From an uncultured Endomicrobiia bacterium (GTDB lineage Bacteria; Elusimicrobiota; Endomicrobiia; DTEH01): DNA of 35,510 bases. Every line of letters begins with the position of its first letter. Positions within the stretch are counted from its first letter, which is position 1. Made by a program: the position numbers and the translations under genes. This document shows positions 2,899 to 23,049 of the stretch, one piece after another. The notes under the pieces were generated by a model. The model saw only the letters and a program-made list of their open reading frames with translations, made no database searches and was not told the origin of the DNA. Location of the stretch: contig CALJEJ010000024.1 of assembly GCA_938074745.1 (NCBI GenBank), forward strand, positions 1-35,510, written 5' to 3'.

Positions 2899-3297
2899 GG
2901 AGTAGAGGCTTTAGCCTCGTAGGAGTAGAGGCTTTAGCCTCGTGGAAATAGAACGTCGGAGTTCGTATAGAAATTATAAAAGTTGGAGTAGAGCGTTTAC
3001 GCTTGTTAAAACGGAGTAGAGCCTTCATGCTCGTAGGAGTAGAGGCTTTAGCCTCGTGGGAATATAGGCTTTAGCCTCGTAGAGTAAAATTTATATAATT
3101 AACGAGCCTAAAGGCTCTACTCCTAACGAACTTAAAGGTAAGAATGCCTATTGAAATTCTTGGAGTAGAGGCTTTAGCCTCGTGGGAATAATAGGCTTTA
3201 GCCTCGTAGAGTAAAATTTATATAATTAACGAGCCTAAAGGCTCTACTCCTGAAGGCTCTACTTTAGACGAGCCTGAAGGCTCTACTCCTAAATTAT
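2898..3297. repeat. Intergenic cluster of about 22-bp palindromic elements (GGAGTAGAGGCTTTAGCCTCGT and its reverse complement), including an 89/90-bp direct duplication
   Basis: Multiple direct and inverted copies between cysK and the thrC-like gene; the unit folds as GAGGCTTTAGCCTC. Confidence 0.95.
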
Positions 3298-3314: not shown

Positions 3315-4589
3315 ATGTATACTAAAGGATTAAAATGTAGAGAATGTGGTAGGGAATATCCTAAGGAACCACTTTATGTATGCGAATATTGTTTTGGACC
3401 ATTGGAAGTAAATTATGACTATTCTAAAATAAAAAAGAAGCTGAGCAAAGAACTGATTGCTTCCCGTCAGAAAAATTTATGGAGATATAGAGAATTATTG
3501 CCTATTGATGGTGAACCAATAGCTGGGTTACAATCAGGATTTACTCCGTTAGTTAAAGCAAACAATTTAGCTAAAGAGTTAGGTGTAAAAGAACTATATA
3601 TTAAAGATGATTCAGTATGTCATCCTACACTTTCTTTCAAAGACAGAGTAGTTTCAGTAGCAATATCAAAATCAAAAGAATTTGGGTTTGATACAGTTGC
3701 TTGTGCATCTACTGGAAATTTAGCAAATTCAGTTGCATCCCAAGCAGCTCAGGCAAAAATGAACTGTTTTGTTTTTATACCTGCAGATTTAGAGTTAGGC
3801 AAAGTTGTTGCCTCACTTATTTACGCACCAAAAGTTGTAGCAGTTGAAGGTAATTATGATGAAGTAAACCGTCTTTGTACAGAAATAGCAAACAAATATA
3901 AATGGGCATTTGTTAACATAAACATTCGTCCATATTATGCTGAAGGGTCAAAGACATATATATACGAAATTGTAGAACAGTTAGGTTGGCGTGCACCGGA
4001 TAATATTGTAGTTCCTGTTGCTGGCGGTTCTTTAATTTCAAAAATTTGGAAAGGACTGAAAGAATTGAAAATGCTTGGTTTTATTGATGAACCAAACGAC
4101 ACTAAAGGGTCTACTTTGGAATTAGAACATTTACGCCCATCTACAAAAATCTATGCTGCACAAGCAAAAGGTTGTTCTCCTGTAGTTACTGCAATAAAAG
4201 AAAATAACGAAATCATCAAACCAGTAAAACCAAAAACAATTGCAAAATCGCTTGCAATAGGGAACCCTGCTGATGGATATTACGCATTTAAGACAGTTAT
4301 AGAAAGTGGTGGTTGGGCTGAAGATGTAACTGATGAAGAAATAGTTGAAGGAATAAAATTGTTAGCTCGTACTGAAGGTATATTTACTGAAACTGCAGGC
4401 GGGGTAACTGTTGCTGTAACTAAAAAACTTATACAACAAGGTAGAATAAAAAAAGATGAATTGACAGTTATTTCAATCACAGGTAACGGATTAAAAACTC
4501 AAGAAGCTGTATCGTCAAAACTTGATACAATTATAAAAATTAAACCTAACTTAAATTCGTTTGAGAACGAAATAAAAAATATTAGCTGA
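3315..4589 (+). CDS. Threonine synthase-like PLP enzyme with N-terminal zinc-ribbon
   Basis: [19 protein letters not shown] ribbon, [34 protein letters not shown] motifs; RBS ggaggg. Confidence 0.8.
4095..4120. repeat. Degenerate hairpin element inside the thrC-like CDS
   Basis: aacgacactaaagggtctactttgga resembles the reverse complement of GGAGTAGA-CCCTTTAGGG-TCGTT. Confidence 0.65.
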
Positions 4590-4602
4590 AAGGAGATTAA
4601 TC

Positions 4603-5676
4603 ATGAGTATAAAAGTAAGAATACCAACACCACTACAAAAATTAACTAATAACCAAGTTGAAGTTGAATGTGAAGCAAAAAATATTAAAGAATTGATTGA
4701 AAATCTTGACAAAAAATATCCAGGTATTAAAGAAAGACTTTGTGATGAGAAAGGCAATTTACGACGGTTCATAAACTTTTTCGTCAACGATAAAGATATA
4801 AGATTTTTAGATGGAGAACAAACAGAACTTAAAGATGGCGATGTTGTATCTATAATTCCAGCGATTGCAGGTGGGACAGAACTTACCGAACAACAGATTG
4901 AACGATATAGTCGTCAAATAATATTGCCTGAAATTGGTGGTAGTGGACAAAAAAAATTATTAAATGCCAAAGTATTAATTATAGGTTGTGGTGGGTTAGG
5001 TTCACCTTGTGCATATTATTTAGCATCTGCAGGTGTGGGTAAAATTGGGTTAGTTGATTCTGACAAAGTTGAACTGAACAATCTACAACGACAAATTTTA
5101 CATTTTACAAAAGATGTAGGAAGACAAAAAACAGAATCAGCTAAAGAAAAATTAAATTCTATCAATCCTGATGTTGAAGTAGTAACTTATCCAGTTAGAA
5201 TTACTTCACAGAATATAATGGATATTATTAAAGATTATGATATAATAGTTGATGGAAGTGACAACTTCCCAACCAGATATTTAGTAAACGATGCCTGTGT
5301 TTTGTCTAACAAACCGTTAGTACATGCAGGAATATTAAGGTTTGAAGGACAAGCAACTACGATTGTCCCTTACAAAGGTCCATGTTATCGTTGTATTTTT
5401 CAAGAACCGCCTCCGCCAGGGATGGTACCTTCATGTCAAGAGGCAGGTATATTAGGAGTAGTAGCTGGAATTCTTGGTGTGATCCAAGCCACTGAAGTTA
5501 TAAAATATATCTTAGGCAAGGGCGAACTTTTAGTTTCTAAACTACTTGTATTTAACGCTTTAGAAATGAGTTTTAGAAAACTTAGTATACAAAAAAATAA
5601 TGATTGTCCAATTTGTGGAGATAAACCTACAATAAAAGAACTTATTGATTATGAACAATTTTGTCAAGTTCGTTAA
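4603..5676 (+). CDS. CysO/MoaD-like sulfur carrier domain fused to MoeB/ThiF-family E1 adenylyltransferase
   Basis: N-terminal ubiquitin fold ending [10 protein letters not shown] directly followed by [23 protein letters not shown]1 [19 protein letters not shown]; Zn motifs CYRC and CPIC. Confidence 0.9.
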
Positions 5677-21508: not shown

Positions 21509-22414
21509 ATGATTACAGAGATTGAAAACAAAAATAAAATAGACCTAAGAAATATTTACGAACCAATATCTACAGAATTATCCAATGTTGAGATAGAACT
21601 GAAGAACCAAATAAATGATATAGTTGGTCAATTCACAATGGCTAGTACTAAACAAGTTATTGAACACTTTTTTAGAACTCCGGGGAAACTTCTTCGTCCC
21701 GCGTTAGTTTTATTATCCGCTAAATCTGTTACTAATCACAAATCACTAAACACTAATCACTTGGTTCAATTAGCCACAGCAGTTGAACTTATCCATAACG
21801 CTTCTCTTATCCATGATGACATAATTGATGAAGCAACTGTCCGTAGAGGCCAGTCAAGTATAAACAACAAATTTGGGAACAAAATTGCAGTCCTTGCAGG
21901 TGATATATTATACGCACGCGCTTTTTCTATTTTGATAAATAGTCCACGGTCCACAGTCAATAGTCAGATATTAGAAATTATTTCTAAATGCGTAGAAAAG
22001 ATGTGTGATGGCGAAATTAACGAACTTAGTATTGGAGTAGAGCCTTTAGGCTCGTCTACCAGGACTAAAATCTCTGCTATTGAAGAATATCTGAAGATAA
22101 TAGAAAACAAAACTGCATCGTTTATGTCTGCTTGTTGCGAGTGTGGTGCAATATTAGGTGCAGCAGAAGAAAAAATACTTAAAGCATTAAAAGATTTTGG
22201 ATTTTACTTTGGTATGACTTATCAAATAGTTGACGATTATATAGACAGAGATTCAGGAGTAGAACCTTTAGGTTCGTTACCGGGGCTAAAGCCACTACTC
22301 CAATATGCAGACGAATTTGTTCTTAAGTCAAAACAATCAATTGAAATTTTGCCTGATTCTGTTTTTAAAGAAAAATTATTTGATTTAGTTGATTATATCT
22401 CAGGTCAAATATGA
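21509..22414 (+). CDS. Polyprenyl synthetase (trans-isoprenyl diphosphate synthase family) with several repeat-derived insertions
   Basis: GKLLRPALVLLSA, ELIHNASLIHDDIIDEATVRRG (first DDxxD), KTASFMSACCECGAILG, YQIVDDYID (second DDxxD). Confidence 0.85.
   Translation: MITEIENKNKIDLRNIYEPISTELSNVEIELKNQINDIVGQFTMASTKQVIEHFFRTPGKLLRPALVLLSAKSVTNHKSLNTNHLVQLATAVELIHNASLIHDDIIDEATVRRGQSSINNKFGNKIAVLAGDILYARAFSILINSPRSTVNSQILEIISKCVEKMCDGEINELSIGVEPLGSSTRTKISAIEEYLKIIENKTASFMSACCECGAILGAAEEKILKALKDFGFYFGMTYQIVDDYIDRDSGVEPLGSLPGLKPLLQYADEFVLKSKQSIEILPDSVFKEKLFDLVDYISGQI
21727..21763. repeat. Period-7 repeat inside the polyprenyl synthetase CDS
   Basis: ctgttactaatcacaaatcactaaacactaatcac; encodes SVTNHKSLNTNH. 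Confidence 0.8.
21940..21969. repeat. TAGTCCA-type period-7 repeat inside the polyprenyl synthetase CDS
   Basis: tagtcca cggtcca cagtcaa tagtcag; encodes NSPRSTVNSQ. Confidence 0.8.
22034..22055. repeat. Hairpin element inside the polyprenyl synthetase CDS
   Basis: ggagtagagcctttaggctcgt; encodes GVEPLGS. Confidence 0.9.
22256..22301. repeat. Convergent pair of hairpin elements inside the polyprenyl synthetase CDS
   Basis: ggagtagaacctttaggttcgtt then accggggctaaagccactactcc; encodes GVEPLGSLPGLKPLL. Confidence 0.9.
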
Positions 22415-23049
22415 AACCAATAATTTCAATAGTAGGTAAAAAAAACAGTGGGAAAACAACTTTGATTGAAAAAATTATCCCAGAATTAACAAAACGTGGC
22501 TACAAAGTAGGTGCAATAAAACATGATGTTCATGAATTTGAAATTGACCATGAAGGTAAAGACACCTGGAGAATGACAAAAGCAGGTGCAGATACAGTGG
22601 TGATCGCATCGGATAAAAAATTAGCCATGATAAAAATGTTAGGAGTAGACCCTTTAGGGTCGTTTCACGAGGCTAAAGCCTCTACTTCTGAGGGAATTTC
22701 AATAGACCAAATTGCTGAATGGTTATTTCCTGATGTTGACCCTGTTAGAAATATGCCCACCATTCACGAAAGGCAAGAGGCCGATACACAAGTGCATCGG
22801 ATTTCTAACGGGGTGGATATTATCATAACCGAAGGATATAAACGAGAAAATAAACCTAAAATTGAGGTAACTCAAACTGGTGAACTACTTTGTAGCCAGG
22901 ATGATAATTTGATTGCTGTTGTCTTCAATCCTTTACTAACCACTAACAACCAATCGCTAATCACTAATCTGAATGTCCCTTGTTTCAACATAAATGAAAC
23001 AGAAAAAATTGTAGACTTAATTGAAGAAAAATTTTTGAAAAGAGGTTAA
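22411..23049 (+). CDS. mobB: Molybdopterin-guanine dinucleotide biosynthesis protein B with repeat-derived insertions
   Basis: ISIVGKKNSGKTTLIEKIIPEL, GYKVGAIKHDVHEFEIDHEGKDTWRMTKAGADTV, IIITEGYKRENKPKIEV. Confidence 0.9.
   Translation: MKPIISIVGKKNSGKTTLIEKIIPELTKRGYKVGAIKHDVHEFEIDHEGKDTWRMTKAGADTVVIASDKKLAMIKMLGVDPLGSFHEAKASTSEGISIDQIAEWLFPDVDPVRNMPTIHERQEADTQVHRISNGVDIIITEGYKRENKPKIEVTQTGELLCSQDDNLIAVVFNPLLTTNNQSLITNLNVPCFNINETEKIVDLIEEKFLKRG
22642..22688. repeat. Convergent pair of hairpin elements inside mobB
   Basis: ggagtagaccctttagggtcgttt then cacgaggctaaagcctctacttc; encodes GVDPLGSFHEAKASTS. Confidence 0.9.
22739..22814. repeat. Inverted-repeat insertion element inside mobB
   Basis: Arms ACCCTGTTAGAAAT (22739-22752) and ATTTCTAACGGGGT (22801-22814), 13/14 complementary. 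Confidence 0.8.
22934..22970. repeat. Period-7 repeat inside mobB
   Basis: ctaaccactaacaaccaatcgctaatcactaatct; encodes LTTNNQSLITN. Confidence 0.75.

Follow-up and report, generated by a model that had tools for sequence, protein, structure and literature searches.

The mobB gene of the window, by which we mean the whole 35,510-nucleotide stretch of an uncultured Endomicrobiia genome analysed here, raises the question of what divides the conserved DVD|IIITEG strand of its product, and where the dividing segment came from. The product of 22411-23049 matches Pfam MobB at 2e-41 in two stretches, scores 128 bits against TIGR00176 mobB (cut-off 76), and matches the MobB structures 2f1r (A. fulgidus) and 1np6 (E. 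coli) in the PDB. It reads ...IDQIAEWLFPDVD-PVRNMPTIHERQEADTQVHRISNGVD-IIITEGYKRENKPKIEV, with the insert splitting the strand. The two crystal-structure proteins align on either side of the insert and not across it, and MobB-like proteins from two other genomes of the class, reading FSDVDIVLVEGLK and FSEADIVLAEGFK at this position, are without it; its removal restores FPDVDIIITEGYK, which aligns with the MobB of 1np6, 2f1r and the two same-class relatives. Since these four orthologues do not have the segment, we conclude that it was inserted where the TEG strand begins.

An in-frame insert in mobB

The features of the locus are as follows, with the strand where one is assigned.

22411..23049, plus strand: mobB, molybdopterin-guanine dinucleotide biosynthesis protein B, 212 aa, with in-frame insert (Pfam, TIGR00176 and PDB matches)
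22736..22739: left copy of the target duplication, TTGA, 4 bp (family-wide YNNR direct duplication)
22740..22813: 74-bp miniature element, CCCTGTTAGAAAT ... ATTTCTAACGGGG (family consensus from other genomes; fold z-scores)
22740..22752, plus strand: left terminal inverted repeat, encoding P-V-R-N and differing from the consensus CCCCGTTAGAAAT at one position (T for C)
22753..22800: interior of 48 nt, a multiple of 3, with two predicted hairpins at 22754-22775 and 22781-22800
22801..22813, minus strand: right terminal inverted repeat ATTTCTAACGGGG, encoding I-S-N-G, exact family consensus
22814..22817: right copy of the target duplication, TGGA, one base changed (family-wide YNNR direct duplication)

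A first-pass annotation of this DNA had proposed an in-frame, mobile-type insertion splitting the MobB motif, and the sequence, the frame and the insert-free orthologues agree with it. Its net gain of 78 bp stands as well, being made up of the 74-bp element and a 4-bp duplication, or 26 codons in all. The site was placed correctly and a target duplication is present, although the borders have to be redrawn to 22740-22813 and the duplication is the 4-bp TTGA/TGGA rather than the 6-bp gttgac/gtggat. The terminal inverted repeats are 13 bp long with one mismatch and, counted as 22739-22752 / 22801-22814, 14 nt long and 93% complementary, that is, near-perfect as had been claimed. The two copies of the duplication match at 3 of 4 positions. 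The window copy carries two substitutions relative to the family, one in its left end and the other in the duplication, which is what an old insertion would be expected to show.

With an interior length divisible by 3 and ends that lack stop codons in two of the three frames, the insertion added its 26 codons without a frameshift; the encoded peptide, DPVRN...ISNGV, would follow a helix of MobB and precede the TEG strand. As the full-length reading frame is still open, MobB is probably made with the extra loop, which the protein would then tolerate. A single-sequence structure model of the insert-bearing MobB gave a pLDDT of 38, too low to be of use in placing the insert.

The same gene holds a second, unrelated in-frame insert of a GTAG-like hairpin type at 22637-22690 (GGAGTAGACCCTTTAGGGTCG...CGAGGCTAAAGCCTCTACTTC, protein LGVDPLGSFHEAKAST), so that mobB alone is host to two kinds of coding palindrome. 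In-frame hairpins of the GTAGAGCCTTTAGGCTC type lie at 22026-22080 and 22250-22300 in the preceding polyprenyl synthetase gene, and more copies of them cluster at 3012-3250 of the window. The element at 22740-22813 differs in type from these GTAG-like 22-bp hairpins, as had been noted at first pass.

A dispersed family with the same ends

Within the window, the exact pair GTTAGAAAT-N48-ATTTCTAAC occurs once, and in none of 100 dinucleotide shuffles. If the actual letters are disregarded, however, a locally shuffled window contains about 2-14 inverted pairs of 13 bp with a single mismatch and a similar gap, and the inverted repeats are thus unremarkable by themselves. A second copy of the element was found neither in its own genome (1.52 Mb, 85 contigs), where near-matches of one end stood at control level and were without a partner arm, nor among about 100 other genomes of the same class. 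We then have to look further afield, and the reality of the window element is established by a cross-genome family that has the same ends. Using the pattern GTTAGAAATN{20,50}ATTTCTAACRGGG on 85,462 GTDB species genomes, we obtained matches in at least 112 contigs; base counting over 264 Gb, with both strands, 31 gap lengths and 21.5 fixed bases, predicts about 2 by chance. The first-pass annotation had proposed a search for further copies in the genome itself and had counted uniqueness there against an insertion; since the same ends and 4-bp duplications recur in these contigs across many phyla, that measure was too narrow.

The scan required exact ends, and conservation of the ends is therefore in part a selection effect; nevertheless, the consensus CCCCGTTAGAAAT / ATTTCTAACGGGG includes a conserved CCCC on its left side that the query did not require. 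Among the matches listed, 99 of 121 copies extend to CCCC...GGGG free of mismatch at 8 positions, three of them fixed by the pattern. The elements measure 47-76 bp. Carriers among the matches listed belong to many groups of Patescibacteria, to Omnitrophota, Elusimicrobia, Deltaproteobacteria, Nitrospiraceae and Planctomycetota (Phycisphaerae, Sedimentisphaerales), and include a Clostridia bin. As all carriers listed are draft metagenome-assembled genomes, misbinning may inflate this list of phyla: it could account for carriers of one copy, for instance the Nitrospiraceae genome, but not easily for those with tens of copies. In the eight carrier genomes counted, exact ends number from 1 to about 40 on each strand and almost all of them form short pairs; a reversed-pattern control gave 0-1.

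The copies are flanked by direct duplications of fixed length. Among the matches listed, the 4-bp duplication is exact in 72 of 119 copies, and identity of the flanks over 4 bp is 0.80 as against 0.44 for shuffled pairings (maximum 0.50); when lengths from 1 to 10 were compared, none but 4 bp gave a signal of that size. The duplicated target is YNNR, most commonly TAAA, TTTA or TGAA. Since such a target is roughly palindromic (T..A), direct and inverted repetition were told apart in the 109 listed copies with a non-palindromic centre, and the duplication was direct in 79 and inverted in 4 of them.

Two near-identical viral contigs in IMG/VR hold a copy with an exact TTCA duplication (L006 762-820 and L007 2951-3009), and viruses of this kind are a possible vehicle between hosts. 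Three further viral-contig matches look unrelated, having neither CCCC/GGGG ends nor duplications. Extra end sequence within the copies of L173, L028, L048, L072 and L092 resembles nesting or an internal build-up of end repeats.

Fold, reading frame and host proteins

The window element is predicted to fold as a three-way junction in which the ends form the stem and the interior two hairpins, with a fold z-score of -4.8 using DNA parameters and -4.5 using RNA parameters. In 104 listed copies with an interior of at least 30 nt, unselected for fold, the mean z was -1.57 and 36% lay below -2. The interior varies across copies, with the two hairpins often formed, and a two-hairpin subfamily is present in Elusimicrobiota and Patescibacteria. 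Nearest to the window's interior is that of L170, from the same phylum (CCGATGTCTTTGCGCATCGG against CCGATGCACTTGTGTATCGG), and the second hairpin of the window element, CCGATrCAC..GTGyATCGG, is similar to that of the L170 copy. Across an alignment of 15 members, whose window row is out of register in the second hairpin, the end stem does not vary and 13 of 17 hairpin pairs have changed on both sides, as in 0 of 500 shuffles; most of these members had been picked for folding, and the result consequently leans towards structure. No Rfam match was found in 22500-23000 at E up to 1.

The family also shows a preference for keeping the reading frame. Among the matches listed, 76 of 119 copies have an interior whose length is divisible by 3 (p about 1e-11 against one third); these statistics are not fully independent, because copies within one genome share interior lengths. 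A test independent of the element itself was made by removing the element and one duplication from each site and asking if what is left lies in an open frame of 150 aa or more. At such open sites the interior is divisible by 3 in 36 of 42 listed copies, the window's included, as opposed to 28 of 63 elsewhere (odds ratio 7.5, Fisher p = 1.7e-5).

In-frame coding insertion into unrelated genes, several of them of known Pfam families, was seen for 32 listed copies, of which 26 add a peptide of the form xPVRN...ISNGV/A and 6 PLEI...FLTG. The hosts include electron transfer flavoprotein (ETF), RACo, Tex, queuine tRNA-ribosyltransferase (TGT), an AIR-synthase-type protein, a class II aminoacyl-tRNA synthetase and a penicillin-binding protein, and the matched domain spans the insert in ETF (L041), AIRS_C (L022), the C-terminal part of RACo (L042) and the central region of Tex (L049). 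In two Phycisphaerae-type loci from two genomes (L022 860-1945 and L119 1058-2143), an AIR-synthase-type gene is interrupted by the element at one and the same codon, which lies upstream of MRDPTRGG. A shared filled site suggests vertical inheritance and indicates that such insertions can persist. For annotation, these data carry the warning that PVRN...ISNGV stretches in such proteins are transposon-derived.

Mobilisation and relation to known elements

Taking these results together, the segment in mobB is very probably a decayed single copy of a 74-bp non-autonomous, MITE-like element that would have been moved in trans and, like a Rickettsia palindromic element (RPE), came to lie in frame in a protein-coding gene. 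We propose that a trans-acting enzyme would recognise the 13-bp ends CCCCGTTAGAAAT and insert the element at a YNNR tetranucleotide, here presumably TTGA, duplicating those 4 bp as is seen across the family. Insertions that keep the frame would survive in genes. The constant ends would act as recognition sites. What is preserved in the variable, hairpin-forming interior may be its structure and length and not its sequence, a point that is shown in part.

An enzyme of this kind was sought in the carriers. No pairs of ends at insertion-sequence spacing occur in the complete end lists of two carriers, and no autonomous copy with ends enclosing a transposase was found among the ends and transposase loci covered by a non-exhaustive search of draft genomes. 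Ends that appeared unpaired have, in nearly all cases, a mismatched partner at short distance. Several of the long candidate pairs turned out to be two neighbouring short elements that share a duplication and the rest have weakly matching ends, which makes all of them unconvincing. Of nine carriers, three have DDE_Tnp_1 and two have IS1380 above the cut-off; none of these transposases was shown to have family ends, and the full-length IS1380 bears ends of its own (CCTGAATTATGCAC).

Three other explanations were weighed against such a relic. That the 26 residues are an ordinary lineage-specific loop of MobB, with inverted repeats by chance, would accord with the frequency of equally long inverted pairs in a shuffled window, with the uniqueness of the segment in its own genome and with its imperfect duplication, yet it leaves the recurrence of the exact ends with 4-bp duplications in the contigs of other genomes, and of PVRN/ISNGV peptide ends in unrelated proteins, without a cause, and we regard it as hardly credible. 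A domesticated structured RNA or regulatory element, such as an attenuator or RNA-binding site, is also very improbable, if slightly less so: the stable three-way-junction fold and the covariation in a subset speak for it, and against it stand the empty Rfam search and the number of copies, dispersed in unrelated genes and flanked by target duplications.

A somewhat greater, though still small, likelihood attaches to an element of the REP/RAYT type, in which a Y1 (HUH) REP-associated transposase would recognise the hairpins and mobilise the palindromic repeat as single-stranded DNA. Y1_Tnp genes occur in 8 of the 9 carriers, a count made in carriers alone, the interior hairpins show compensatory changes, and GTAG and CGTC REPs also occur inside genes (PMC3733652). 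On the other hand, the element is without a GTAG or CGTC tag and no matching ends adjoin Y1_Tnp at the 12 loci examined in the carriers. Moreover, a clear 4-bp target duplication is, to our knowledge, not a product of HUH transposition, and by that established knowledge a DDE-type enzyme is favoured over a Y1/HUH RAYT.

The relic of a MITE-like element, presumably mobilised in trans, remains our preferred explanation. The likeness to MITEs lies in the 13-bp inverted repeats at both ends, the direct target duplication of fixed 4-bp length, and dispersal at up to about 40 copies per carrier genome with no transposase gene inside. Chunjie, a MITE of Geobacter uraniireducens that is 178-235 bp long and largely intergenic (PMC10969869), is likewise short and multicopy, with terminal inverted repeats, direct duplications and no ORF of its own; unlike Chunjie, the present family is much shorter, is biased to multiples of 3 within genes and has no parent insertion sequence that we could find. 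RPEs are short palindromes of about 150 bp, known from Rickettsiales, that lie in frame in unrelated protein-coding genes and add a translated peptide (Ogata et al. 2000, 2002, as reviewed in PMC10969869), and they end in a CGTC tag (PMC3733652). The present family shares with RPEs the in-frame insertion into unrelated protein-coding genes but differs in its size, its CCCC...GGGG ends, its 4-bp YNNR duplication and its spread over many phyla; 22740-22813 contains no CGTC and no sequence relation was seen, RPEs being compared by their published description. We know of no mobilising enzyme for RPEs. REPs with a GTAG or CGTC tetranucleotide tag, some inside genes (PMC3733652), resemble the family as short hairpin repeats, but the element has neither tag and the family does have a 4-bp target duplication; the 22-bp hairpins of the window look closer to GTAG REPs than the 74-bp element does.

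The best reading of the family as a whole is an RPE-like 'coding palindrome' present in many phyla. The full end sequences were not found in the literature searched, in which shorter core strings gave nothing relevant on transposition; with this incomplete coverage of the literature, the family is likely, though not proven, to be undescribed. In-frame coding palindromes are best known from Rickettsia, where their movement and their role in protein evolution are open, and a second, sequence-unrelated family in mostly uncultured phyla, with constant ends and a 4-bp duplication, makes both questions testable. More tentatively, and less probably than not, a single translatable, cloverleaf-folding family may exist in at least seven phyla, with invariant 13-bp ends, a changing interior and an unrecognised enzyme, selected for in-frame read-through; if so, conserved proteins would systematically gain PVRN...ISNGV peptides.

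Two side observations come from the carriers. In L105 (5599-5809), short elements lie near a tRNA-like gene and have interior sequence resembling tRNA. In L145 of the Elusimicrobia carrier G100, a membrane protein (ORF 3636-5537, minus strand) contains in-frame RAALSAIGAESAANGRN repeats, which look like yet another coding-repeat family.
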